From assembly GCF_000016545.1 (NCBI RefSeq), contig NC_009437.1, positions 537,501-601,500 of the forward strand: a stretch of DNA of 64,000 nt, in the 5' to 3' direction. Within the stretch, counting starts at the first letter, position 1. The number at the start of each line of letters is the position of its first letter. This DNA comes from Caldicellulosiruptor saccharolyticus DSM 8903. GTDB taxonomy: Bacteria; Bacillota; Thermoanaerobacteria; Caldicellulosiruptorales; Caldicellulosiruptoraceae. A program made the position numbers and the translations under genes. A model generated the notes under the pieces. It ran no database searches. It worked only from the letters and a program-made list of their open reading frames with translations, and was not told the origin of the DNA. Below are positions 1 through 19,043 of this stretch, one piece after another.

Positions 1-1154
1 GGTACTCCGTTTTTCCACTTGCCCCGACGCAAGTTTTCTCTTTGTAAATATATGTTTATCTCTAAAACTTCTACAGATTGAAAATAACCACCGGAGTTTA
101 TTCTTATCTTTTCAATCATACTGTTTACGCTTTCTACAGCATTAGTAGTATAAATGTACTTTCTTAAATCTTCAGGATACCTCATATGTGCAAGATAGAA
201 CTCTGCTTTTTCGCAAATACCTTTTATGAATCGAGGATATTTTGAGGAGTATTGCTCACAAAGAAGTTTGAACTTTGAAATAGCTTCGTCAAAATCAGCA
301 GAGGAAGTTCTTAGTTTATCAAGCTCTTTGTTGAAAACGGAAGCATCATCTTTTGCCATATGTTTTCTGACATTGCGTTGAAGGTGAACAAAACATAGTT
401 GATGGTCGGCAAGGGGATAAGCGAGTCTAACAGCATCGATAATGCCTGGAAAATCATCGCTTACAACTATTAAGACTTTTTTAAGACCTCTTGTAATTAA
501 GTCGTCAAAGACTCTCATCCAATCGGCTTTGTTTTCTTTGCCGAAGAAAGTGTAGATACCGAAGATATCTTTTTTGCCTTCTAAATCAATGCCAAGCACG
601 ACATAGCAAGTAGCTTGTTTAACTTTTGAGTTATCTTTAATTTCGCAATGGTAACCGTCAATGATAAGAGCAAAAGCACTTTCAGGAAGTTCTCTTTGTT
701 TGAAAAGTTGAAGCTCGTTTTTAAGATCGTTTTTGATTTTTTCGATTTCGTCTTCAGAATAAGGCAGATTCATGCTTTTAAGAGTTTGGACAAGAGAACT
801 TTCTGAGTAACCATTGGCGACTAAAGACATGAGCAGGTCAGTGTATGAGCTGTCAACCCTTTTGTAGCGGTCAGGGAGAATGGAAGGTCGAAAGTTACCA
901 GAGCGTGTGCGAGGAACAGAAATTTCAAGGCTGCCAACAGGTGTTGCAAGTTTTCTGCCGTAAAAACCATTGCCTTTATCGTTTTCGTTTTTAGCAAGGT
1001 AAACAGTTCTTTCTGATAACATAAAGCAATCGAGCAAGTTTTCCAAAAGCTGTTTTAAAGCTGGGCGAGTAGGATCATCTTTGGAGCAATACATATTTAA
1101 TACTTGCTCGATAGCCATATTTTTAGCGGTTTCAAAAATTTCATTTTTCTCCAT
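1..1154 (-). CDS. IS256-family (mutator-type) transposase, C-terminus cut by window edge
   Basis: The minus strand reads open from an ATG at 1154 to the window edge (about 384 codons). A G-rich ribosome site lies just upstream of the ATG. The protein has the layout of IS256/MULE DDE transposases: a first Asp in LIIDGYHCEI, a second in VVSDDFPGI, a histidine-rich QLCFVHLQRN segment, and a final Glu in TNAVESVNSMIEK. Family proteins are about 400 residues, so only a short C-terminal piece should be missing to the left. It catalyses cut or copy transposition of its element. No frameshift or stop is seen, so the gene may be active. Confidence 0.93.
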   Translation of the reverse strand, partial: MEKNEIFETAKNMAIEQVLNMYCSKDDPTRPALKQLLENLLDCFMLSERTVYLAKNENDKGNGFYGRKLATPVGSLEISVPRTRSGNFRPSILPDRYKRVDSSYTDLLMSLVANGYSESSLVQTLKSMNLPYSEDEIEKIKNDLKNELQLFKQRELPESAFALIIDGYHCEIKDNSKVKQATCYVVLGIDLEGKKDIFGIYTFFGKENKADWMRVFDDLITRGLKKVLIVVSDDFPGIIDAVRLAYPLADHQLCFVHLQRNVRKHMAKDDASVFNKELDKLRTSSADFDEAISKFKLLCEQYSSKYPRFIKGICEKAEFYLAHMRYPEDLRKYIYTTNAVESVNSMIEKIRINSGGYFQSVEVLEINIYLQRENLRRGKWKNGV

Positions 1155-1215
1155 AATCGTGAGCCCCCCTTTGGTGATTATTTCAACACTAATTATACAG
1201 TGGACACAATTTTAT
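1..1215 (-). mobile_element. IS256-family insertion sequence, right part
   Basis: The element contains the transposase above and ends near 1205-1220, in the AT-rich segment holding TGGACACAATTTTATTTTA. Immediately to the right, an IS110-type reading frame starts in mid-protein, so the element is inserted in that gene. The exact terminal inverted repeat and the target duplication cannot be checked because the other end is outside the window. Confidence 0.75.
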
Positions 1216-1612: not shown

Positions 1613-2180
1613 AGTGAAGTGAGAAAAATTGCTTGAACATTCTTAATTTAAAGCAGGAGAAATAGTTTGAGTGATTCACATCTTGAGGGGGTAAAGAAAT
1701 TCTTAGCTTTGCGAGGAGATTAAGTCATGTCGAGTAGCAAAGCGCCCCTTTTGGTAGGAGTTCACATCTTAAACAATGTATAGAGAGTAACAAGTGAAGA
1801 AAGAAGGATAAAATGATTCTTTATAAAAAGTAAGTAGATTGGAAAATGTGAGCGGGTGGTCAGAGTACATCCCCATACGGGCGAAGACCCTGCATACGAG
1901 CATAACTGACGTCCACGCCATGGTAGATGGGACGAGGGAATTGAGGGCAAGTGAGAAAAGACCCTGAGAGACATGAGAGGGTAAACGCCATGGTTATTGT
2001 GGATAAATACCCGCCGTAATATGGTAGAATAACAAGATAAATACAAGATGGAGGCCAATTCTAAGTTGGGCATGGTAGAATAAAGCAATAATAACAATAT
2101 CAAGAACAAAATTGTTTGTTTCGATAACGAAATTTAAAGAAACCGTGAGATATTTTGAGAAAATCAAAGGTATATTGAGA
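1613..2180 (+). ncRNA. Candidate IS110/IS1111 bridge-RNA region (3' non-coding end)
   Basis: About 570 bases follow the transposase with no credible gene. IS1111-type elements carry their bridge RNA downstream of the transposase, which fits this placement. Two parallel modules are visible. One runs from AAGACCCTGCATACGAG (about 1884) to CGCCATGGT (about 1916). The other runs from AAGACCCTGAGAG (about 1958) to CGCCATGGT (about 1985). The second contains an ACCCT/AGGGT hairpin. Two similar segments are what a donor loop and a target loop could look like. The exact RNA ends and the element boundary are inferred, not seen. Confidence 0.4.
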
Positions 2181-2193
2181 GAGGGATGTAAAC
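2181..2193 (+). repeat. Truncated CRISPR repeat (13 nt) at leader side
   Basis: GAGGGATGTAAAC equals the last 13 bases of the array repeat and is followed by a 37-base spacer-sized segment (2194-2230) before the first full repeat. The bases to its left do not match the repeat. A repeat therefore appears to have been cut, most simply by insertion of the IS110 element or by an adjacent deletion. The region 2094-2180 could be IS end or residual leader; neither can be proven here. Confidence 0.7.
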
Positions 2194-2230
2194 ATTGTTT
2201 GGGTCCTCCGATTTAGAGCCGATTGAGCCG

Positions 2231-3902
2231 GTCTTATCTGAACTATGAGGGATGTAAACTTGCATAACTAGTGGGATCATTAATCGGCTCTATAATAGTC
2301 TTATCTGAACTATGAGGGATGTAAACGGCAATGTGGTCCAAGGTAGAAAGGCGGAAGCTGGGGTCTTATCTGAACTATGAGGGATGTAAACGTTTTAAAA
2401 CTGTTAGTGCTTCTTCAATGTCTTTTAAGTCTTATCTGAACTATGAGGGATGTAAACCATGCCCAAAGAATTTATAAAGACATCAAAGAACAGTCTTATC
2501 TGAACTATGAGGGATGTAAACCTTTGCCCCGCTACTGTAGTCCACGTGGGTGTTGCCTGTCTTATCTGAACTATGAGGGATGTAAACTCAACAAGTATTA
2601 CATAGCCAGCTTCTCTTATTTCTGTCTTATCTGAACTATGAGGGATGTAAACTCTATGATATAAACTCCATCTTCTTTAAGTCTCCATGTCTTATCTGAA
2701 CTATGAGGGATGTAAACTTTGGCCGATGGTGTAGCAACTTGGGCGGAGTTGGTGGTCTTATCTGAACTATGAGGGATGTAAACAAGAAGAGATAAAAGAT
2801 TAAGCAGTAAGAACTCTTGTTGTCTTATCTGAACTATGAGGGATGTAAACGAAGCAAGGGAAAATATAAGGCGTTCTTGGGAATACATGGTCTTATCTGA
2901 ACTATGAGGGATGTAAACTATTGACAATGTGCTAAAAGCTGTGCTGGATGCTTTGTCTTATCTGAACTATGAGGGATGTAAACGAAGCAGTTAAAGTTTT
3001 ACAAATGGCTTTATAGAGAGGTCTTATCTGAACTATGAGGGATGTAAACATTTTTTCAGCCATTCTCATTTTCAATCCCTCCTCCGTCTTATCTGAACTA
3101 TGAGGGATGTAAACGACTGGTATTAGTGACAATGACTATATTGGTAGTTCGTCTTATCTGAACTATGAGGGATGTAAACGTTCTTGTCACAAATTGGACT
3201 GAGTTTGTAAATACTTGTCTTATCTGAACTATGAGGGATGTAAACAAGAGTCTATAAAATCAGATTTTCCAAACACTCCAGTCTTATCTGAACTATGAGG
3301 GATGTAAACTCTGACATGATTATTAATTACTCATGGTACGCTAAAGTCTTATCTGAACTATGAGGGATGTAAACATCGGTTGGGCAATTTTAGGTTTGAC
3401 GACAGTTGCAACTTGTCTTATCTGAACTATGAGGGATGTAAACATGACGCCCTGTGCGTGAAGAATTAACTCTGTGCGGGTCTTATCTGAACTATGAGGG
3501 ATGTAAACTATGGTTATTGGGCTTGGGTATGTTTTGTTGTAAGTAGTCTTATCTGAACTATGAGGGATGTAAACGTGCAATTTGATAAGCTTTCATGTTT
3601 TGCTCTGGGTTGTCTTATCTGAACTATGAGGGATGTAAACGTCTAACACGTCTGCAACAGAACAGAGCTGAAACGCGTCTTATCTGAACTATGAGGGATG
3701 TAAACTGCTAAATACTGCTGTGCCAAGCTTTTGCAGCCTTCGTCTTATCTGAACTATGAAGGATGTAAACTCTGGAGGAGCTCGTCCCTCACAAGATCGT
3801 ATGCCTGGGTCTTATCTGAACTATGAGGGATGTAAACAAGGGGGTGTTGGAAAAACTACTATTGCACTTGCACGTTTTATCTAAACTATGAGGGATGTAA
3901 AC
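2231..3902 (+). CRISPR. CRISPR array, 26 full 29-nt repeats, 25 spacers of 35-40 nt
   Basis: Repeats start at 2231, 2298, 2363, 2429, 2493, 2559, 2624, 2689, 2755, 2822, 2890, 2955, 3021, 3086, 3151, 3217, 3281, 3346, 3415, 3480, 3546, 3612, 3677, 3742, 3809 and 3874. The unit begins GTCTTATCTGAACTATGAG and ends GGATGTAAAC. The repeat at 3742 has one change (GAAGG for GAGGG) and the last one at 3874 starts GTTTTATCTAAAC. Degeneration on the right, and an ATGTAAAC end similar to the ATTGAAAC crRNA handle of I-B/III repeats, put the leader on the left and transcription on the plus strand. Several spacers read as protein-coding phage or plasmid sequence (see findings). Short open frames across the array are artefacts of the repeats. 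Confidence 0.98.
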
Positions 3903-4004
3903 GTAGCGAACAGCTGTTAATGATAAAATAAAATCATCAGAAATGACATCAAAAATTCCCCACCTGCTACTTAATGTGAAGCCTTATGTAATAGTATAGA
4001 ATAA

Positions 4005-4676
4005 AAAATTAGGTATATAGGAATTTTTATACTTTTTGCAAAGGAACTTTTGATTGAAGGAATCAAGGGCAATGGTATCAAACTCTCTAACAAGCAGTTT
4101 AGTGAAGTTTATGAAGCATATAAACAATTAGCAAAGCAGATGGGATTTGAAAATGTACCTGAAATATAGGTAATTGAGTCAGGTGGATTTTTGAATGCCT
4201 TTGCTATGCGGTTTATTGGAAGAGATTTTGTAGTTGTTTATTCTGGTATTCTGGAGCTTGCATATAAGGGAAGTCTTGATGAAGTAAAGTTCATACTTGC
4301 ACATGAACTTGGGCATCTTAAAGCAAACCATCTTAAGCATAGGCTGATACAATTTGGTTTAATGTTACCTTTTTTAGGTCAAGCATGTTTGAGAGCTTGC
4401 GAATATACTGCTGATAGATATGGAGCTTATTTTTCACTAAATGGTGCTTTAAAGGGCTTGATTTTATTAGCAGCAGGCAAGGAGTTGTATAGAAATGTAG
4501 TATTAGAAGAGTTTTTAAAACAGGCAGAAGAAGAAAGAAGCTTTTGGATAAGTTTTGCAGAACTTCTTGCTTCTCATCCTCATTTGACAAGCAGGATTCA
4601 AGCAATTAAGGATTTTGTTAAAACTTTAAAACCCTCTAATTCTCTCTCTGAAGTTTATAATTTTGAATCTGTTTAA
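4005..4676 (+). pseudogene. M48-family zinc metallopeptidase with internal TAG stop
   Basis: One frame runs from the stop at 4002 to 4676. It reads KELLIEGIKGNGIKLSNKQ, then GFENVPEI, a TAG at 4167-4169, then VIESGGFLNAFAMRF. The catalytic zinc motif HELGH follows the stop, and EYTADRYGAYF supplies the third ligand region. Conserved M48 (HtpX/Ste24-like) proteins have PxxYVxxS...NAFA here, so the TAG most simply replaces a Tyr codon. The N-terminus is also short, since family members usually have another 30 or more residues and often membrane segments. A TTG at 4191 could restart translation of the catalytic half (161 residues), but no clear ribosome site is seen. Confidence 0.8.
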
Positions 4677-4958
4677 GCAGTTGGGCTCCAAGAGTAGTTT
4701 TATTGAATGGAGCGTAAATTGAATACATGAGTGTGCCAAAAATTAAACTTGAATTTGGCACATACAGCAAAGAACAATATGATAACCACATAGGAAACTA
4801 AAATATAGAAAAATAAAAAGTGCCTCTTTTTGATATTCACGAAAATGGTCTTAAAAGCATAAGTTTGCCTTTTACAAAATTGAAAATTACTAAATAATTT
4901 ATTACAAAAGAGATATAAATTGGCAAACAATATCAATTTTTATGAACAAAACTCAAAA
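4677..4958. other. Gap without a recognisable gene
   Basis: AT-rich spacer between the peptidase pseudogene and the lone repeat. A 78-codon minus-strand frame at 4700-4936 has low-complexity hydrophobic composition, no ribosome site and no family resemblance, so it is not called. Nothing else is supported. Confidence 0.5.
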
Positions 4959-4987
4959 GTTATATCTGAACTATGAGAAGTGTAAAT
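4959..4987 (+). repeat. Solitary degenerate CRISPR repeat upstream of the cas operon
   Basis: This 29-base segment matches the array repeat at 23 of 29 positions. It includes an uninterrupted TATCTGAACTATGAG (4963-4977) and TGTAAA (4981-4986). It has the same orientation as the array, lies 1056 bases past its last repeat and about 160 bases before the cas promoter. No neighbouring repeat at spacer distance is visible. It may be a relic of a longer array or a retained processing or regulatory site; the sequence does not decide. Confidence 0.8.
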
Positions 4988-5145
4988 AGGATTAAGTGAA
5001 TAGGGGGCAAATCTATATCCATTTTATTGGAAATTTATAAGATGCAAACAATTTCAAATATACAGATTAATGGGATGTTCAAAAGACTTTGCTTGTGGAG
5101 TAAATTAGCTAAAAAATTATTTCACAAAAAGGATTTTGTAAATTA

Positions 5146-5174
5146 TTGTCGAAATATTTATATAACAGTATAAT
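5146..5174 (+). promoter_or_regulatory. Promoter of the type III cas operon
   Basis: A -35-like TTGTCG (5146-5151), a 17-base spacer and a perfect TATAAT (5169-5174) precede the first cas gene. The predicted start near 5181 leaves a very short leader holding the AAGGAGG ribosome site at 5189-5195. All six genes downstream are tightly packed on the same strand. Confidence 0.7.
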
Positions 5175-5206
5175 TTGTGAATTTGAATAAGGAGGATTTG
5201 GAGATA

Positions 5207-6562
5207 GTGAATAGTAATAAGATTTTGTTTATAACAGTTGGGACTAATCCTTTACCTGCCTATGTAGTAGCAAAATATTTTAAAGATAGTTTCAATAATG
5301 TAGTTTTGATTTCATCTGAAGAGAATAGAAATATCTATCAAGCTGGTACTAGAGCATATGCAGAAAAGATAAGGGATACTTTAGAAACCAACGTTGAAAA
5401 ATATCACATTATTTCCCTTTCAAATGTTGCTAATCCTGCTGAAATTAAAAGAGATTTAAAGAAACGGCTTGAAAGCAATGATATATTATTTTCAAAAGAC
5501 GATATTCAAAAAGTTCATTTGAACTATACAGGTGGTACAAAAATAATGGCTGTTGCAGTTTATAATTTTTTGAAAGAAGAGTATGGAGACAAATTTGAAT
5601 CTTCATATCTAGATGCAAGAAGTTATAAGCTGATTTTAGAGGATGGCACTGTTGAACCTACTTTTGAGGATTTAAGGGAAAAAGTAAAGATTGATATAGA
5701 GACATTGTTAAAGCTCCATCTTTACGAAGTGAAAAGAATTGAAAGTGACGAAAAATATAAAAAAGCTTTTGGAGAAAAATATTATTCTGAAATAATTAGC
5801 GAAATAGAAAAGATAGTAAATGATGACGACAAAAGAGGAAAATATTTAGAATGGACAAACAAATATTTCAGAAAAGTATTTAGATATAAAGATGAAAGTA
5901 ACAAAGAGAAACTGATAACAACTCCAACGAAATTATCAGAACATTTAAACAAAGAAGAAAATAAGAAACTAATTGAGGATTTTGAAAGTCTTACTCCTGA
6001 GTTTATATGGGATTTATTAGATAAATTCCCTGATGGTAAAAAAATAATAACACAGAGAGGTAAGTTGTGGGTACCATATAGAGATTCAACCAAAAATAAA
6101 ATAGAGGATACAATAAAGTTTTTGGATGGCGAATGGTTAGAACTTTATGTTTATAATCAAATAAAGGACCAACTAATAAAAAAGGGTTTACTACAAAAAG
6201 GAAATTTTGGACGTTCGATTATTGCTGTTAAAAGTAAGGAGGATGGGAAAGAGTTCGAAATGGATATATTTATAATTTATGGCTATCAACTGATAGGTAT
6301 TTCTATTACAACTTCAACTGAAAGGCATATTTGCAAATCGAAAGGTTTTGAAGTGATTCACCGTGCACGCCAGATTGGAGGCGATGAGAGCAGGGCTATT
6401 TTGGTTACAGGCTATAAAGACCCTGAAAACCCTAAAAGTCCTAAGGATTTAGAAGAGGATTTGAGCTATGAAACGGGAGCTTCAACAGGAAAAATAATTG
6501 TCTTTGGACCAGAAGACTGGAAAGATATAGGGCAAAAAATTCTACGGGAGGTTTTTTCATAA
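5207..6562 (+). CDS. Card1/Can2-like CARF-nuclease (CRISPR ancillary effector)
   Basis: 451 residues from GTG 5207, chosen because AAGGAGG ends 11 bases upstream; an earlier GTG at 5177 would lie before that site. The N-terminal CARF domain shows FITVGTNPLPAY (about 8-19) and the ligand motif NYTGGTKIM (about 106-114). The C-terminal DUF1887/PD-(D/E)XK-like part shows GEWLE (about 308), EMDIF (about 351) and a FEVIHRARQIGGDESRA helix. In relatives a cyclic tetra-adenylate made by Cas10 switches on nuclease activity. The strand that usually carries the catalytic E/CxK reads GISITTSTER, so catalysis may be altered. It is first in the operon, and its stop overlaps the cas10 start by one base. 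Confidence 0.85.
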   Translation: MNSNKILFITVGTNPLPAYVVAKYFKDSFNNVVLISSEENRNIYQAGTRAYAEKIRDTLETNVEKYHIISLSNVANPAEIKRDLKKRLESNDILFSKDDIQKVHLNYTGGTKIMAVAVYNFLKEEYGDKFESSYLDARSYKLILEDGTVEPTFEDLREKVKIDIETLLKLHLYEVKRIESDEKYKKAFGEKYYSEIISEIEKIVNDDDKRGKYLEWTNKYFRKVFRYKDESNKEKLITTPTKLSEHLNKEENKKLIEDFESLTPEFIWDLLDKFPDGKKIITQRGKLWVPYRDSTKNKIEDTIKFLDGEWLELYVYNQIKDQLIKKGLLQKGNFGRSIIAVKSKEDGKEFEMDIFIIYGYQLIGISITTSTERHICKSKGFEVIHRARQIGGDESRAILVTGYKDPENPKSPKDLEEDLSYETGASTGKIIVFGPEDWKDIGQKILREVFS

Positions 6563-8094
6563 TGGGCAAAAGTGTTTGTGCAGTTCTAATTGATACTGTG
6601 TCAATTCAGGAATATATATTTTCAAGCAATAAATTGAAAGAAAATATGGGGGCTTCATATATTGTAGACAATATTTTCAAAGAACACTTAAAAAGCACAC
6701 TGCAAAAAATATTCTCAATTCAAAATTTAAACATAAATGAATGGAAAGAGAAGCCAGGCGTTTATACAATATTTCATCCAGATGTAAAATTTGAAATTGG
6801 ATATATTGGTGGAGGGAATGCTCTGATATTATTCAAGGCTAAAGAAAAAATAAAGGAATTTATAGAAATTTTTTCAAAGACTTTATTAGAAATAGCTCCT
6901 GGACTTAAAACAGCTTATAGCATTTCTGAAGAGTTTGATTTAGATGAATTTTCCAAATCATTGAAGAAACTGAGAGATAATTTAATAAGGAACAAAAACA
7001 GGTTTTTCCCAATAACTACAATAGCAAAATATGGTTTTACAGCTGACTGTCCTCATACAGACGGAGCTGCAGATTTTTTAGAAAAGGATAGTAAATTTAT
7101 TTCTGGCGAATCAATGGCAAAACTTAATATGGCTGAAACTGCTAGGAATAATTTTAGAGATACTTATATAAGCAAAGAATTTACGAATAAATATACGTTC
7201 ACATATAATATAGACGATTTAACAACAAAAAAGGGGTTACTAAATTATATTGCAATAGTCCATATTGATGGCAATAAAATGGGTGAAAAAAGTGGTAGAT
7301 GTGGTTCCTTAAAAGAAATCAGATTATTTTCCAAAGAAGTTGAAGAAAGCTCTTCAGAAGCTTTTAAGAAGATGATATCAGAACTTATTGACAAAATTGA
7401 AGAAGGTGTGGTTTCTGAAAAAAGTGGTTTTTATCTTAAAAAAACTTTGGAAGATGGCAAAGAGAAAGTGATTCTTCCTGTAATACCCATTATTAGAGCA
7501 GGTGATGAGGTTACTTTTATTTCTGACGGAAGATTAGGGATATGGTTAGCAGAAGTATACCTCAAAGATTATATCAATAAAAAGGTGTTAGGTGAGAAAT
7601 TATCAGCATGTGCTGGTGTAGGTATATTCAAATCAAAATATCCTTTTTACAGAGCCTATATTTTGACAGAAGAAGTTTTAAAAAGAGCTAAAAAAGCATC
7701 AAGAGGAAAAGAAAACTCTTCTTATTTAGACTTTTTTATATCTTCTCGTGGTGTTAGTGGAGACCTTGAAAACATTTTAAAAAAATATTTTAAAGGAGAA
7801 GAAGGCGATTTGCATTATGGACCTTATAGAGTTGATAATGACAAAGAATGTAACTCAGTTAAAAATCTGAAAAATATTATTAAAGAATTTAAGAGATATC
7901 CTAAGAATAAGCTCATGAAGTTAAGAGAAGTATTGTTTGAGAAGAAAGAGATGGGAGAAATGTTTTTAGAAGAGTTAAAAGCTAGTAAACAGATAAAATT
8001 AAATAACCTTCCCAAAAGTTTATGGGATAACAACCAAACACCTTATTTTGATGCAATTGAACTTGTTGATTTTTATCCGGAGGGATTATTATGA
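6562..8094 (+). CDS. cas10: Cas10-type large subunit without HD domain (type III-D-like)
   Basis: 510 residues, shorter than usual Cas10 (700-1000). It starts directly with the first palm domain (SIQEYIFSSNKLKENMGAS about 14-32, and YIGGGNALILF about 81-91). The second palm carries HIDGNKMGEK (about 234) and RAGDEVTFI (about 312), where AGDE stands in for the GGDD cyclase motif and keeps both acidic residues. A CAGVGIFKSKYPF strand-turn and a helical C-terminal domain follow. No N-terminal HD nuclease is present. The likely role is target-RNA-triggered cyclic oligoadenylate synthesis feeding the upstream CARF protein. It overlaps csx10 by four bases (ATGA). Confidence 0.88.
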   Translation: MGKSVCAVLIDTVSIQEYIFSSNKLKENMGASYIVDNIFKEHLKSTLQKIFSIQNLNINEWKEKPGVYTIFHPDVKFEIGYIGGGNALILFKAKEKIKEFIEIFSKTLLEIAPGLKTAYSISEEFDLDEFSKSLKKLRDNLIRNKNRFFPITTIAKYGFTADCPHTDGAADFLEKDSKFISGESMAKLNMAETARNNFRDTYISKEFTNKYTFTYNIDDLTTKKGLLNYIAIVHIDGNKMGEKSGRCGSLKEIRLFSKEVEESSSEAFKKMISELIDKIEEGVVSEKSGFYLKKTLEDGKEKVILPVIPIIRAGDEVTFISDGRLGIWLAEVYLKDYINKKVLGEKLSACAGVGIFKSKYPFYRAYILTEEVLKRAKKASRGKENSSYLDFFISSRGVSGDLENILKKYFKGEEGDLHYGPYRVDNDKECNSVKNLKNIIKEFKRYPKNKLMKLREVLFEKKEMGEMFLEELKASKQIKLNNLPKSLWDNNQTPYFDAIELVDFYPEGLL

Positions 8095-10331
8095 TGGAGG
8101 TTAAAGTTAAAACACTCTCATATTCTCTTTTTGCATCAGGAGAAGGGGACGGGTTAATAGATAGTGATGTTGTTTATGATAGTTTTGGAATACCATATAT
8201 TCCTGCTAAGCGTGTAAAGGGTTGTTTGAAAGAAAGTGCTTTAGAAGTATGTGAAATGTTGGGGATATCCTCACAAATTGTTTATAGTGTTTTTGGCAAT
8301 GAAGGTTTAGAAGGGAAGATATATATCAATAACTTATATATAAATAATTATGAAGATTTAAAAAACGAAATAAAAGTTCTTAAAAAAGAAAAGGAGTTTT
8401 CTCTATATTTACATCCGCAAAAGGTGTTATCTCATTTTACAGCAGTGAGATATCAGACAGCCATCAACGAAGATGGTGTTGCAAAAGAAAATTCTTTAAG
8501 GACAATTAGGGTACTCAAGCCTGATATTGAGTTCAAAGGGGATATTTATGAGATTAAAACCCTTTCAAGGCGAGAAAAAGCGTTGCTTTACTTAGCGGTT
8601 ATTAATTTAAAAAGAATGGGAACATCAAGGAATAGAGGGTTTGGCGAAGTAAGGTGTATTTTGGAAAATTCTGGATTTGAGAATTCTCAAGAGGCAATAG
8701 ACGTTTTGTTAACATCAGAGGTTACTAAAGCAAGCAAGAATGATAATAAAACATCATCGATACTTTTTGATCCAAAATTAACAGGAGAGAATGCGAGAAT
8801 TAAATTTACTGTTAAAACTCTTTCACCTGTTGTAATAGCACAACCAAGAGGTGAGCAAAACACTGTTTATACTAAAAAGTATATACCTGCTTCTGTTATA
8901 AGGGGGTTATTGGCGAAGAGATTGGTAGAAATTTTAAAATTGGGGCGTGATGCTCAAAGGAATGAGCATTTTTATACACTCTTTTTAAGTGATAAGACAA
9001 AAATAGGTAATGCTTATCCGAAAAAAGAAGGATATGTCTTTTATCAAACGCCTCTTTTCATCCAAGAAGAAAAGGGAAGTAACAGTGCTACACTTTATAA
9101 TGTCTTCGACAAATATGAAGAAACAGAAATGCCGAATAATACAAAGCCGCTGAATAAATTTTGTTACATTGATGATGAGAATGTTTATATTTATGAACCT
9201 GAAACTACTTTTTACTTTCATAACAATAGAGACAGGGAAAAAGGACACAGTATAGGGGAAGGAATTTTCTACTATGAAGCCATTAACTCTGGTGAAGAAT
9301 TTGAAGGCGAAATTGTAGGCGATAGAGGGTACTTAGAAGAGCTAAAACAAAAATTTGATGATTTTACCGCTTTTATAGGACGTTCAAAAACTGCTCAATA
9401 TGGACTTGTGAAATTTTGCTTTGGTGATATAGAAGGTTTAAATAGTAACGAAATTAATGACACTGAATTTATTATGTATGCTATTTCTCCAATAATTTTA
9501 TACAATGAGTATGGTTTTACACAACCTTCAGAAAATATTTTAATAGATTATTTAGCGAACCTGTTGGAATGTGAAAAAGAAGAAATCGAAATTGTTGATT
9601 CTGCGGCGAGAATAGAAAAAATTGAAAATTTTATAACTATATGGAAACTAAAAACTCCTTCTTTATTTGCTTATTCCGCAGGTTCATCCTTCAAAGTTAA
9701 ACTTAAGACAATTGATGATAGAATAATAAGAAATCTTGGAAAGATAGAAGCCGAAGGGATTGGTGAAGAAAAAAGTCTTGGTTTTGGAAAAGTTAAAATT
9801 TTACATGATATTCAGGAAGTAATGGTAAGAAAAAAAGTGCCAGAAAAAGAAGATAGAAACTCAACTGATATAAAACAATCAAGAGATATTTTACTGGAGA
9901 TTATAATCAGGGATTTATTAACCGTTGTAAACTATTTGGGATATAGAAAAGCTGAAGATTTTAAGGGTACATTGAAAAACTGGAAGCTAATTTCTAATCA
10001 TTTGATAAACAGGTTATATAACATGCTTACTGAGTCAAATAATTTTAGTGAATGGAAAATAAAAATTGAAAATCTTGATGGTAAAAAAGCAGGAGAGCTT
10101 CTAAAAAAACTTGGTTTGATTGAAGAACTGACCAATAAAGAGATGATTAAAGAAATGTTGAGTAAACAAGATGTTAATAAATTTGGACGAATTCTGTCAA
10201 AATTAGGTGTAAATATAATGAAGGATTCCTCTTTGAAATGGGATATATTTAAAAACTATTGGTTAAATTTCTTAAGATACTTAAGGTTATTTAAAAAGCA
10301 GGAGGAATATAAGGATGAGCAGAATTGTTAG
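8091..10331 (+). CDS. csx10: Csx10-family RAMP protein (Cas5-group) with extra domains and helical C-terminus
   Basis: 746 residues. The N-terminal RAMP unit has the Csx10 signature LIDSDVVYDSFGIPYIPAKR (about 22-41) with KGCL after it, and a glycine loop TSRNRGFGE (about 178). A second unit has YIPASVIRGLLAKR (about 264-277) and the loop IGRSKTAQYGL (about 429). A further loop, GEEKSLGFGKV, is near 558. Residues about 595-746 are almost wholly helical and charged, with no RAMP motif. Csx10 normally caps the crRNA 5' end like Cas5/Csm4. The protein is much longer than a single RAMP subunit, and no separate small (Cas11-like) subunit gene is present nearby. The start is supported by GGAGGG at 8080-8085 and ATGA coupling to cas10. 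Confidence 0.85.
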   Translation: MMEVKVKTLSYSLFASGEGDGLIDSDVVYDSFGIPYIPAKRVKGCLKESALEVCEMLGISSQIVYSVFGNEGLEGKIYINNLYINNYEDLKNEIKVLKKEKEFSLYLHPQKVLSHFTAVRYQTAINEDGVAKENSLRTIRVLKPDIEFKGDIYEIKTLSRREKALLYLAVINLKRMGTSRNRGFGEVRCILENSGFENSQEAIDVLLTSEVTKASKNDNKTSSILFDPKLTGENARIKFTVKTLSPVVIAQPRGEQNTVYTKKYIPASVIRGLLAKRLVEILKLGRDAQRNEHFYTLFLSDKTKIGNAYPKKEGYVFYQTPLFIQEEKGSNSATLYNVFDKYEETEMPNNTKPLNKFCYIDDENVYIYEPETTFYFHNNRDREKGHSIGEGIFYYEAINSGEEFEGEIVGDRGYLEELKQKFDDFTAFIGRSKTAQYGLVKFCFGDIEGLNSNEINDTEFIMYAISPIILYNEYGFTQPSENILIDYLANLLECEKEEIEIVDSAARIEKIENFITIWKLKTPSLFAYSAGSSFKVKLKTIDDRIIRNLGKIEAEGIGEEKSLGFGKVKILHDIQEVMVRKKVPEKEDRNSTDIKQSRDILLEIIIRDLLTVVNYLGYRKAEDFKGTLKNWKLISNHLINRLYNMLTESNNFSEWKIKIENLDGKKAGELLKKLGLIEELTNKEMIKEMLSKQDVNKFGRILSKLGVNIMKDSSLKWDIFKNYWLNFLRYLRLFKKQEEYKDEQNC

Positions 10332-11756
10332 TAGGATAGTAGTAAAAGGTATATTGAAGAACATTTCTCTTTTTTGATTGGCAAAGGGAAAGGAGATTTA
10401 ATAGATATAGAAATTCTGAAAGATGAAAAAGGCAAACCTTTTATTCCGGCAACTTCTTTTGTAGGTGCTCTACGACATTACATGGAAGAAAGGTATTGTA
10501 TAGAGAATAAAAATGCTTGGAACCAGTTTTGGGGTTCATATACACAAGAACAAGATTCGGCTGTTCAGAGTCACTTTGTTGTGAGTGATATATATTTGAA
10601 AAGCGAAGATGTCCAAGGAGAAATAATAGGTATTCGGGATGGGATTAAAATTGACTTAAAGTTCGGAGTTGCTAAAGAAGGTGCAAAATATGATTACGAA
10701 ATAGTAAACCAAAATTTGGAATTTGATTTTAATGCAGAAATTGTAGTAAGAGAAGGCTTTGATAGAGAATATTTTTTGAGAATATTAAAAACAGTCTTAT
10801 ATGAACTTGAGCAAGGAAACGTAAGAATAGGAGCTTTTAGTACAAAAGGTTTTGGCAAATTTGTTTTAGAAGACTGTAGTGTTTATGAATTTTCTTTTTT
10901 TGAAAATAAAAGAAGAGACTGTGCAAAAAAGTATTTTTTATATCTGGAAAATGAAAGATTAGATTCACTTGATGATTTAAAAATCAATATGGATGAAATT
11001 AGTACTCTTCTTCCAAAGGAAAATAAAGATTTTGAGATTGAGGCAGTGTTCTTTTTGAAAAAATCCCTTCTAATTGGTTCATCGAATATAGATATTGAAG
11101 AGGTTGAAGAATTAGATTCTGAACCTGATAAAGTTCATATAAAATACAATCAAAAACCTGTGGTGCCGGGGTCATCATTGAAAGGTGGGCTCAGGGCAAG
11201 ATCATGCAAAATTATCAAAACATTATTGGGAGAAAGTAGAAAAGAGGATACTGAGCTAATAGAAGCTTTGGTTAACAGTATATTTGGTTATGTAACTGAA
11301 AAAAGTGCAAAAGATGATAAAGAGGAAAATATAATAAAAAGGAGAAGTAGAATTAGTGTTGAAGAGTGTATTTTAGAAGGTGTTAAAGAGGCAAATCAAA
11401 CTCGAATAAAAATTGACAGATTTACAGGAGGAACGATAACCGGAGCTCTTTTTGTTTCAAGACCTGTTTGGCACAAAGACGAAAAATTAAACATACGTAT
11501 TAAGGTTAAGGATCCAGAAGAATGGGAGGTTGGATTGTTACTTTTAGTTCTTAAAGACATATGGTGTGAGGATTTACCTTTGGGTGGAGATAAGGCTATA
11601 GGGAGAGGTATTTTAAAAGGTCATAAGGCTCAATTAAAATATCAAGATAAGTTGTATAAATTAAGCCAAGTGGATAATGGCAAAATTAAAATTGAGGGTA
11701 ACAAAGAAGATTTGGAGTATTATGTTAAAAAATTTTTAGAAAAAATAGGGGTGTAG
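10315..11756 (+). CDS. Double Cas7 (Csm3-like) RAMP protein with an apparent frameshift near the N-terminus
   Basis: A perfect GGAGG (10301-10305) precedes ATG 10315, which codes MSRIVSRIVVKGILKNISLF and then hits TGA. Adding one T to the T6 run at 10370-10375 joins it to LIGKGKGDLIDIEILKD, the natural continuation. The main frame then runs to 11756 and could restart at TTG 10374 (460 residues). Two Cas7-like units are seen: KPFIPATSFVGALRHY (about 23-36 of the 460) and VVPGSSLKGGLRARS (about 255). Late in the second is GGDKAIGRG. In type III complexes such subunits form the crRNA-binding backbone, with an Asp before the glycine turn able to cut target RNA. The T-run lesion may be a real mutation, transcriptional slippage or a sequencing error. 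Confidence 0.85.
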
Positions 11757-11762
11757 AATTTT

Positions 11763-12356
11763 ATGAAGAAAGTTTATGAGATAAAAGAAACTTTTTCGAA
11801 GATTGAAAAGTGGGATGAAGTAAAACCATCTGATATAGAGAAAAGAATCTTAGAAAACTTGAAAAATGGTTATATGGTTTGCTGGCTTTGTAATGAGGTT
11901 TTATTTGGGCGAGTTAGAGAAGGTAAGATAGAATTTTATCACGAATTGCAAAGCGACTTTCCAAAGTATTTATTGAGAATTCGTGCATTTAATTCTCAAA
12001 AAGAAATTCATATTTGGAAATCACAAGGACAGTTTAAAGGCAGAATAAGAGAAGACAAGGACATCGAAGCGGGAGATGGGGAAACACTAAAAAAGGTGGA
12101 ATATATAGAGGCTCATCAGATAATGTATGGTAATGGCAAGAATGTGAGAAAAATAAATGAGGAGTTTTATGAAATTTATGACTCAAGGGGAATAAAATAC
12201 ATACTTCCTTCAGAATTAATAAGAGAGAATATATTATCAAAAGATTCTTATTTTGTATTGGTTACAAGAAACTATATAGACTATAACGAAATTGGACAAG
12301 CGGGTTTTATAGATAGCAGATTTGTAAAAATAGAGCACAAGGAGGGAGAAAGTTAA
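11763..12356 (+). CDS. csx19: Csx19-family type III-D CRISPR protein
   Basis: 197 residues. The sequence fits the Csx19/TIGR03984 pattern: an N-terminal WDEVKPSDIE helix, a GYMVCWLCNEVLFG strand, then FNSQKEIHIWKSQGQFKGRI and a VEYIEAHQIMYG segment, each typical of this small III-D-specific protein. Its biochemical role is unknown; it is regarded as an accessory or structural part of III-D complexes. It lies six bases after the double Cas7 and directly abuts the next gene (stop 12356, start 12357), so it is surely co-transcribed. Confidence 0.75.
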   Translation: MKKVYEIKETFSKIEKWDEVKPSDIEKRILENLKNGYMVCWLCNEVLFGRVREGKIEFYHELQSDFPKYLLRIRAFNSQKEIHIWKSQGQFKGRIREDKDIEAGDGETLKKVEYIEAHQIMYGNGKNVRKINEEFYEIYDSRGIKYILPSELIRENILSKDSYFVLVTRNYIDYNEIGQAGFIDSRFVKIEHKEGES

Positions 12357-14375
12357 ATGTCTGATAAAAAATCAGATAAAAGGGCAAAAGCACCTTATAA
12401 TTTTGTGCCTTTAAATAAAAGTCTTGTTTTGGTTTATAATAACAAAGATGAAATTCCTTCTTTTGATAAATATCATCAGGAAAGATTTTCAGGGTATATT
12501 GAACTTGATATAGAAACAAAAACTCCAATTTTTATAAGAGGAGAAGGTTCTCAGTTTTTTAAGATTAATAACAAGCCTTTTATTCCGGGCAGTTCATTGA
12601 GGGGAATGATTAGAACGCTTTTGGAGATAGTTTCTTTTGGGAAATTTAGTTTTTGCGATATAGGGAGAAAGTTGTTTTATAGAGCTGTTGGAGATCTAAG
12701 TAGTTTAGGTAAAGAATATAGGAGTTTGTTTACAAACCAACAAGATTGTTATAGCTATAAATTTCGTGCGGGGATATTAAAGAGAGAAAACGGTATTTAC
12801 AAAATATATCCTTCAAAAGAGATAGAAGGAACGCAAATATTTAGGGTAGAAGAAACTACAATTAAATATAGTGATTTGCCAGAAGAATTGAAAAACAGCC
12901 CACCTTATAGTTTTTTTGAAATATATTTTGAACCTTCACCGTTAGAATATCATACTCACTACCGAGAAGATAAAAAGAAAAATAAAAGAGTACCCTATAA
13001 GCTAAAGTATGCGAAAGTCGAAAGAATTTCTGCTAATAAAGAAGGTGAAAACATGGAAAGAGGTTACTTGATTATTACAGGAGATGTGGGCGATAAAAAA
13101 CATATGCAGTGGATTATAAGTGAACCAATGAATATATCTATACCTATTGATGAAAAAGTTATTGAAGAGTATAGGAATGACAATGATAGAGAAGAGAAAT
13201 ATAACGTTTTAGAGAAATTAGAAGAAAAAAAGGAAGTACCTATATTTTATTTGACAAATGAAAATGATAGAGTTGTTTCAATAGGGCATACAGGATTTTT
13301 CCGCATACCTTACAAATACACTATTGGTGATCATATTCCTGAAAATCTCAAATCTGCTGATGGAATTGACTTTGCCGAAGCTTTGTTCGGTAAGGAAGGA
13401 GAGTTTGCTTCACGGGTTTTCTTTGAGGATGCTGAGTTAGCAGAGAAAAATAATGAGGAAGATATATTTTTTCCTGAGGCTGTGCCGCAGATTTTAAGTA
13501 GTCCCAAACCGACATGCTTTCAGCATTATTTAGAACAAGACAGTTTTAATAATAAAAAATTGAAACATTGGAATGATAAAAAGGCAAAAATTAGAGGTTA
13601 TAAGCTTTATTGGCATAGAGTTACGCCAGATGACGAAAGTAAATGTTCATGGAAATTAAAACAATTCAAGATAAATAAAAGCAACTACGAAAAATTTTTA
13701 AATAATATAAATAAAAACAATTCTACATTGTTAAACAAGAAACATAATTGTATTGAAATCAGTGACAAGGATATTACCATAAAGTGTGCTTTTAATGAGC
13801 TTCCAAAAGATATTCAAGAAGAACTCAAAAATTACTTATTGCAAAGTTCGAAAGCTCAACATACTGTGATTCAACCTGTAAAGAGCGGAATAAAATTTAA
13901 GGGTCGAATTCGTTTTGAAAATCTTTCCAAAGAAGAGTTAGGAGCTTTGCTTTTTGCGTTAGATTTACCTGAAGGTCATTATCATAAAATTGGGATGGGC
14001 AAACCATTAGGACTGGGGAGTATAGCTATAAAACCTACTCTTTTTATAATTGACAGGAGTAAGAGATACAAGAAGCTTTTTGAAGATGATAAGTGGTATC
14101 TTGCTGCTGAAAAAAGGGAAGATATTAACGAATTTAAAAAGGCATTTGAAGAATATATTCTTTGTAGAATTTCAGAAAGTGAAAGAGGAAAGGCAACTTC
14201 TTTATGGGAAATTCCACGAATTAAGGAATTAAAAGAAATGCTTAATTGGCGACATACTGAGAAATCTGACTGGCTTGAAAAAACAAGGTATATGCTGATA
14301 AATCATCCTACATTAAAAAATGAATTCAAAGACAGACCTGTTTTACCAAAACCGACTGAAGTAGTAGACAGTTAA
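12357..14375 (+). CDS. TIGR03986-type Cas7 RAMP protein
   Basis: 672 residues, last gene of the operon. The N-terminal APYNFVPLN (about 12-20), ELDIETKTPIFIRGEG and FIPGSSLRGMIRTLLEI (about 75-91) are the hallmark of this type III RAMP family. A C-terminal unit holds FKGRIRFENLSKEELGALLF and the glycine loop KIGMGKPLGLGSI (about 543-555). It probably contributes backbone or end-capping Cas7 units to the effector. GGAGGG at 12344-12349 supports the ATG at 12357. A strong hairpin terminator follows. The association with Csx19 and Csx10 supports the III-D assignment. Confidence 0.83.
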   Translation: MSDKKSDKRAKAPYNFVPLNKSLVLVYNNKDEIPSFDKYHQERFSGYIELDIETKTPIFIRGEGSQFFKINNKPFIPGSSLRGMIRTLLEIVSFGKFSFCDIGRKLFYRAVGDLSSLGKEYRSLFTNQQDCYSYKFRAGILKRENGIYKIYPSKEIEGTQIFRVEETTIKYSDLPEELKNSPPYSFFEIYFEPSPLEYHTHYREDKKKNKRVPYKLKYAKVERISANKEGENMERGYLIITGDVGDKKHMQWIISEPMNISIPIDEKVIEEYRNDNDREEKYNVLEKLEEKKEVPIFYLTNENDRVVSIGHTGFFRIPYKYTIGDHIPENLKSADGIDFAEALFGKEGEFASRVFFEDAELAEKNNEEDIFFPEAVPQILSSPKPTCFQHYLEQDSFNNKKLKHWNDKKAKIRGYKLYWHRVTPDDESKCSWKLKQFKINKSNYEKFLNNINKNNSTLLNKKHNCIEISDKDITIKCAFNELPKDIQEELKNYLLQSSKAQHTVIQPVKSGIKFKGRIRFENLSKEELGALLFALDLPEGHYHKIGMGKPLGLGSIAIKPTLFIIDRSKRYKKLFEDDKWYLAAEKREDINEFKKAFEEYILCRISESERGKATSLWEIPRIKELKEMLNWRHTEKSDWLEKTRYMLINHPTLKNEFKDRPVLPKPTEVVDS

Positions 14376-18347: not shown

Positions 18348-19043
18348 ATGAGGATAAAGAAAAATAGCACAAACAAAAAATGGCTTTTAGGATTTATAAT
18401 AGGAATTGTTTCGGGGCTTGTAATAGGAATTGCTGCAGGATATTATATTTCATCACACAACATAGCTAAAAAGCAACCGGTGTCGACCACAACTTCTTCC
18501 CAGCAGCAAGTTCAAAGTGGTGGAAGCAGTACATCTGGTAGCAATTTACCACAAACTTCAAATTCCCAGCAAAATACACAGCGAGAGGAAGGAAGTACCA
18601 GAACGCAAAAGCCAAAAACTTACAAGGCATATGGCAGGTTTGTAGGTGGAACTGATGCACACTCCATAGAAGTTAATCTTTTGAATACCAATTTTGACTA
18701 TAAAATATTTGAAACCCACACAGCAGACAACCAGAAATACAATCTCCAGCCGGGGATGATTTTAGAGCTTGAATTTGAAGTACCACAAAGTGGCGGGAAT
18801 CCAAAGATAATAAATATGAGTATTCCAGAAAGTGTTACACTCAAAGGAAAATATATAGGTCTTGCTGACAATAACTTTGCTGAGTTTTTGTTTGACCAAA
18901 AACATGTTGTGCTTCAAATAACAGCTGTATCAAGCAAGATTTCTTATCTTGATGAGAATACAGATGTTGAAGTGACATTTAAAACAAATCCTCAAGACCC
19001 AAACTCAAACCCTATTGTGACAGACATCAAGGTTTTAAAATAA
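18348..19043 (+). CDS. Membrane-anchored secreted protein of unknown function
   Basis: 231 residues. A basic start is followed by one glycine-rich membrane helix (LLGFIIGIVSGLVIGIAAGY, about 14-33), a Ser/Gln/Thr-rich linker (about 45-90) and an extracellular domain of about 130 residues rich in predicted strands. No family is recognised. AAAAGGGG lies 12 bases before the ATG. It is a monocistronic unit between hydE and a shared terminator. Confidence 0.75.
   Translation: MRIKKNSTNKKWLLGFIIGIVSGLVIGIAAGYYISSHNIAKKQPVSTTTSSQQQVQSGGSSTSGSNLPQTSNSQQNTQREEGSTRTQKPKTYKAYGRFVGGTDAHSIEVNLLNTNFDYKIFETHTADNQKYNLQPGMILELEFEVPQSGGNPKIINMSIPESVTLKGKYIGLADNNFAEFLFDQKHVVLQITAVSSKISYLDENTDVEVTFKTNPQDPNSNPIVTDIKVLK

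Follow-up and report, generated by a model that had tools for sequence, protein, structure and literature searches.

Terminal repeats of arrays of clustered regularly interspaced short palindromic repeats (CRISPR) are on record with changes at their 3' ends (PMC8047081), and repeats are also described outside arrays. CreA/CreR elements contain a promoter-matching part (PMC9458426; PMC12737573), solitary viral repeats (Racr units) serve as anti-CRISPR RNAs (PMC10651486), and the archaeal protein Cbp1 binds repeats and non-canonical sites (PMC10883916). A lone repeat-like element lies at 4959-4987 of the window, the 64,000-nucleotide stretch of the Caldicellulosiruptor saccharolyticus DSM 8903 genome (NC_009437.1, positions 537,501 to 601,500) analysed here, between a CRISPR array and a type III-D cas operon. 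The element is probably a decaying relic: in the likeliest case it was the last (trailer-end) repeat, or one among the last, of an array whose end formerly lay about 220 bp ahead of the operon. Like the degenerate trailer-end repeat (PMC8047081), it has the repeat of its array, the array orientation, changes concentrated toward the 3' end and a place beside a cas operon, as at the array end of a relative, G008; unlike it, the element stands apart from its array, with a repeated block and part of an M48 peptidase gene in between. With CreA/CreR (PMC9458426; PMC12737573) it shares the degenerate repeat or repeats outside an array and beside a cas operon, and it differs in lacking a significant target match, in being known from sequence alone and in neighbouring a type III-D system. 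With the Racr units (PMC10651486) it shares a single repeat outside an array; unlike them, it is linked to cas genes and has no phage match.

The element, GTTATATCTGAACTATGAGAAGTGTAAAT on the plus strand, is identical to the array repeat GTCTTATCTGAACTATGAGGGATGTAAAC at 23/29 positions, with mismatches at repeat positions 3, 4, 20, 21, 22 and 29 and a 15-base exact core, TATCTGAACTATGAG, at 4963-4977. It is oriented as the array is and lies 1,056 bases downstream of the end of the last array repeat; the match, orientation, core and position outside any array are all as the sequence-only reading had claimed. Among 25.6 million positions on both strands of 200 first-order Markov sequences as long as the window, no match exceeded 22/29, a score attained at 2 positions, while the real window without the array and the element gives at best 18 on the plus and 19 on the minus strand; the element is therefore a true derivative of a CRISPR repeat. 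Stray copies were sought as the exact core followed by a non-G base in 12 genomes of the genus. For 13 of the 14 matches a further repeat lies at a distance of 64-68 nt, which places them in arrays, and only the element stands outside one; this control detects exact cores only, so that the one-change copy in the close relative G001 and the array-end copy in G008 escape it. Five of the six changes are transitions and four fall within the last 10 bases, a pattern that would fit a relic. An Rfam search over 1900-5400 gave no match at the element and 26 sub-threshold CRISPR-DR43 matches on the minus strand of the array repeats.

The features of the locus are as follows.

2231..3902, plus strand: CRISPR array of 26 repeats, the repeat being GTCTTATCTGAACTATGAGGGATGTAAAC
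3915..4002, no strand assigned: repeated block recurring at at least 11 other places in the genome, read as an insertion-sequence end fragment
4030..4676, plus strand: M48 peptidase gene fragment (Pfam PF01435) without about its first 50 codons and with an in-frame stop
4959..4987, plus strand: lone degenerate repeat, 23/29 to the array repeat, core at 4963-4977, 28/29 retained in G001
4988..5020, plus strand: spacer-like stretch of 33 nt separating the element from the tentative second copy (spacing 62 nt), without a significant match to promoter or operon
5021..5049, plus strand: tentative second, more decayed repeat, 18/29, at +62 from the element
5146..5174, plus strand: promoter-like site TTGTCG-17-TATAAT ahead of the cas operon
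5207..14375, plus strand: type III-D operon encoding a Card1-like CARF-PDDEXK protein, Cas10d, Csx10/Cas5, Cas7, Csx19 and Cas7

The array and the element are parted by a rearrangement scar, formed by the insertion-sequence-like block and the M48 gene, which is truncated at its 5' end. After the array end at 3902 come 12 further bases and then the repeated block, which at least 8 of the 11 remaining genus genomes also carry. Compared with an intact 261-aa homologue in G010, the M48 fragment aligns from 4039 onward. G001, which is 90% identical over 4681-5215, shares the layout of array, insertion-sequence-like block, M48 fragment and element, the last with one change; the in-frame stop of the M48 fragment is present here and absent from G001. 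From this common layout, the split would be older than the divergence of the present genome (G000) and G001. The 12-13 spacer bases after the last array repeat (window 3903-3915; L081 after 18510) differ between the two genomes, and the same repeated block follows them at nearly equal distance. A single shared insertion should have left an identical partial spacer. Two G001 arrays (L081 2063-4454 and 15006-18510) have two repeat variants, GTT... and GTC..., as viewed in their first, middle and last repeats.

Comparison across 37 genomes of the class found a Card1-like match at E<=1e-10 in 14 and at E<=1e-30 in 8, this genome counted. The Card1-like protein of the window itself is recognised by PADLOC (E=6.4e-168), and in Pfam its Card1 CARF domain scores over and its Card1 endonuclease domain under the cut-off. 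A repeat or array end lies upstream of the operon and in its orientation in seven of the eight genomes with the stronger match, from 0.2 to about 3 kb before Card1, which makes an array adjoining the operon the likely ancestral state, as judged from these genomes. A scan of the genome contigs with the Card1 protein confirmed no relative.

A parallel is offered by G008, whose Card1 is 44% identical to that of the window. Its array (L083 14245-15509) is interrupted by an IS110-family element, itself struck by other insertions; past the right end of this element, 18460-18470 is the 3' part of a repeat, and a 38-nt spacer separates it from the last repeat, at 18509-18537, which keeps the core and is ruined at its 3' end. 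This last repeat stands 224 bp before the Card1 GTG at 18762, as against 219 bp between the window element and GTG 5207, which we read as the operon start; counted to the longest Card1 frames, beginning at 18735 and 5177, the distances are 197 and 189 bp. The IS110 labels are those of Pfam, for which a 94-aa remnant in G008 falls just below the cut-off and other copies lie above it. In G033 and G025 the repeat is a different one, and the arrays lie upstream of the operon in operon orientation; the last repeat of G025 (L085 5907) has been left 'lone' by an insertion of the IS110 family. As read from such loci, insertion sequences demonstrably create 'lone' repeats. G017 has two repeats at a contig end, and its Card1-like gene (L088 1571-2892) is in two frames. 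G022 has a lone repeat upstream and no array within the 10 kb read. That repeat (L087 6837-6866) is nearly intact; a small membrane-protein-like gene follows it after 94 bp, and a Card1-like gene, likewise divided into two overlapping frames, lies about 0.8 kb downstream of the repeat. The repeat pattern is matched at 235 other places in the G022 genome.

The relic reading is favoured because the element is beyond chance, is the one core match in 14 outside an array, corresponds in position to an array end in G008 and is cut off by a scar; the last two support the earlier suggestion of a relic from an array once reaching the cas operon. In the proposed course of events, the ancestral array would have ended about 220 bp ahead of the type III-D operon, an insertion sequence and the M48 gene fragment would have come between the element and the remaining array, the array tail would thereby have been detached from the leader, the site of repeat copying, and the stranded repeat would have drifted afterwards, presumably neutrally. 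The element and the terminal repeat of G008 would then descend from one repeat.

Several observations weigh against this account. The sequences that follow the element and the G008 terminal repeat on their downstream sides cannot be aligned with each other (global p 0.67, local p 0.09), and the case for common descent therefore depends on the core and the distance. In G021, a search with these repeat types only found none upstream of the operon. An apparent half repeat upstream of the element, at 4892-4920 (-67), reaches 14/29 and is not significant as a companion (about 0.1 for 8 offsets; 0.23 for 20), and the stretch upstream of the element resembles neither a decayed leader nor an IS110 end. 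If 5021-5049 is a real repeat copy, the element was not the final repeat.

The match at 5021-5049 is 18/29 in G001 as well. At repeat spacing, such a score arose by chance in 14/20000 trials (8 offsets, p 0.0007) and in 6/5000 (21 offsets, p 0.0012), and anywhere on the plus strand of shuffled flanks in 78/3000; a spacing of 62 nt is uncommon but occurs in arrays. By these scores, 5021-5049 may be a second relic or a chance match.

The principal functional alternative is a CRISPR RNA (crRNA)-like regulator of the CreA/CreR kind, in which degenerate repeats are cut by Cas6 and an adjoining 33-38 nt guide the effector to the cas promoter or transcript. Its appeal lies in the position of the element ahead of the cas promoter, in the possible second degenerate repeat at +62, and in the rule that ectopic CreA repeats are degenerate (PMC9458426). 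The genome also encodes Cas6 elsewhere (2 places over cut-off) and a type I-B Cas7, through which a crRNA-like RNA from the element could in principle be used, going by gene content. The would-be guide part is flanked by one sure repeat, the element, and one tentative one. Promoter-like sites of the TTGTCG-17-TATAAT kind number 6 against 4.6 expected by chance, and the promoter and leader stretch 5146-5206 differs between G000 and G001 at 1/61 positions. Against a regulator stands the search for its target. The 33 or 37 nt downstream, the 38 nt upstream and the element itself, compared on both strands with promoter and operon, gave nothing beyond random controls, so the complementarity between the 37 downstream bases and the cas promoter envisaged by the sequence-only reading does not exceed chance; the nearest promoter match is a same-strand 9-mer, AGTGAATAG, common with 5206-5214 at the Card1 start (p about 0.1), and the best antisense run is TATATCCATTT at 6258 (p 0.25). 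The RNA structure of the element and of 4959-5049 is no better than that of shuffles. All three bases around the Cas6 cut site, whose position in the repeat we take to be the expected one, are altered in the element. As to conservation, which the sequence-only reading had also raised, the element is kept in G001 (28/29) but is no better conserved than its neighbourhood (1/29 differences vs 48/530 in the noncoding 4677-5206, P=0.24, with one close relative and little power); differences number 3/33 in the downstream 33 nt and 5/29 in the second copy, and 191/501 29-nt windows have as few as the element. The idea of a functional orphan repeat, as a Cas6 site or CreA-type guide, thus finds no support in conservation, guide matching or RNA structure. 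CreR is reported for types I and V-A (PMC12737573), whereas the neighbouring system here is type III-D. A CreR-like regulator at the element is accordingly unlikely. More doubtful still is a mini-array, made of the element, the 33-nt guide and 5021-5049 and derived from the stranded tail, that would yield a crRNA-like RNA tuning its own III-D operon through imperfect pairing or Cas6 titration, as the type III equivalent of CreR.

A further rival holds that the element is a stray repeat copy delivered by a rearrangement rather than a remnant of an array formerly here. The lack of a convincing upstream companion would suit it, as would the splitting and moving of repeats by insertion sequences in the genus; but the element shares its orientation with array and operon, its position equals that of the G008 array end, and no other stray exact core occurs among the 14 genus matches, so this origin is as improbable as a CreA/CreR-kind regulator. 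Least probable of all is a binding site for a protein recognising repeat DNA or RNA, or a Racr-like decoy, for which the viral solitary repeats that serve as anti-CRISPR RNAs (PMC10651486) and the non-canonical sites of Cbp1 (PMC10883916) offer precedents. Here, the setting is neither viral nor prophage: the element is flanked by an M48 gene fragment and cas genes, and none of 50,697 phage records matches 4677-5206. Nor is excess constraint on the element seen against the one close relative.

IS110-family elements were also observed to occupy a fixed point within CRISPR repeats; the loci are window 2183-2193, with the element extending upstream to about 1217, L090 13133-16467, L094, L095, L098, L099, L100, L101, L105, L085 4247-5869 and L088 5046. 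The junction of GTYTTATCTGAACTATGAG with CATTCCTGTAATG occurs in 7/14 truncated-repeat matches within the genus. In L090, one array is split by such an element with both junctions visible; in G025, another repeat is split by a different IS110-family element, whose left junction is also found in G017. From these junctions, the elements seem to use CRISPR repeats as their target site. IS110-family elements are guided by bridge or seek RNAs (PMC11208160; PMC11187229), and Thermus IS1000, of the same family, has ends equal to CRISPR repeats, which were interpreted as recruitment (PMC6352166); a literature search found no description of IS110-family targeting of CRISPR repeats. The non-coding IS110 ends, searched for repeat-matching stretches, gave one 8-nt complement (window 1866), for which no chance comparison was made, and Rfam gave no match over 1600-2230. 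The stretch 1867-2176 was considered as an array leader, the same block preceding the last G008 spacer, and rejected: an IS110-family element sits there within a repeat, and the stretch is its right end. Window 1-1200 and about 14221-15440 of L090 resemble, by eye and unaligned, copies of one inserted element, and recombination between them may have moved the window array.

Taken alone, the element is of little weight, a fossil pointing to a former adjacency of the array and its III-D operon, and the insertion of IS110-family elements into CRISPR repeats looks more interesting. The case carries a caution, in that insertion sequences can sever the tail of an array and leave it near a cas promoter as a repeat-like element. 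Were the element functional, crRNA-like self-regulation would extend to a type III system.
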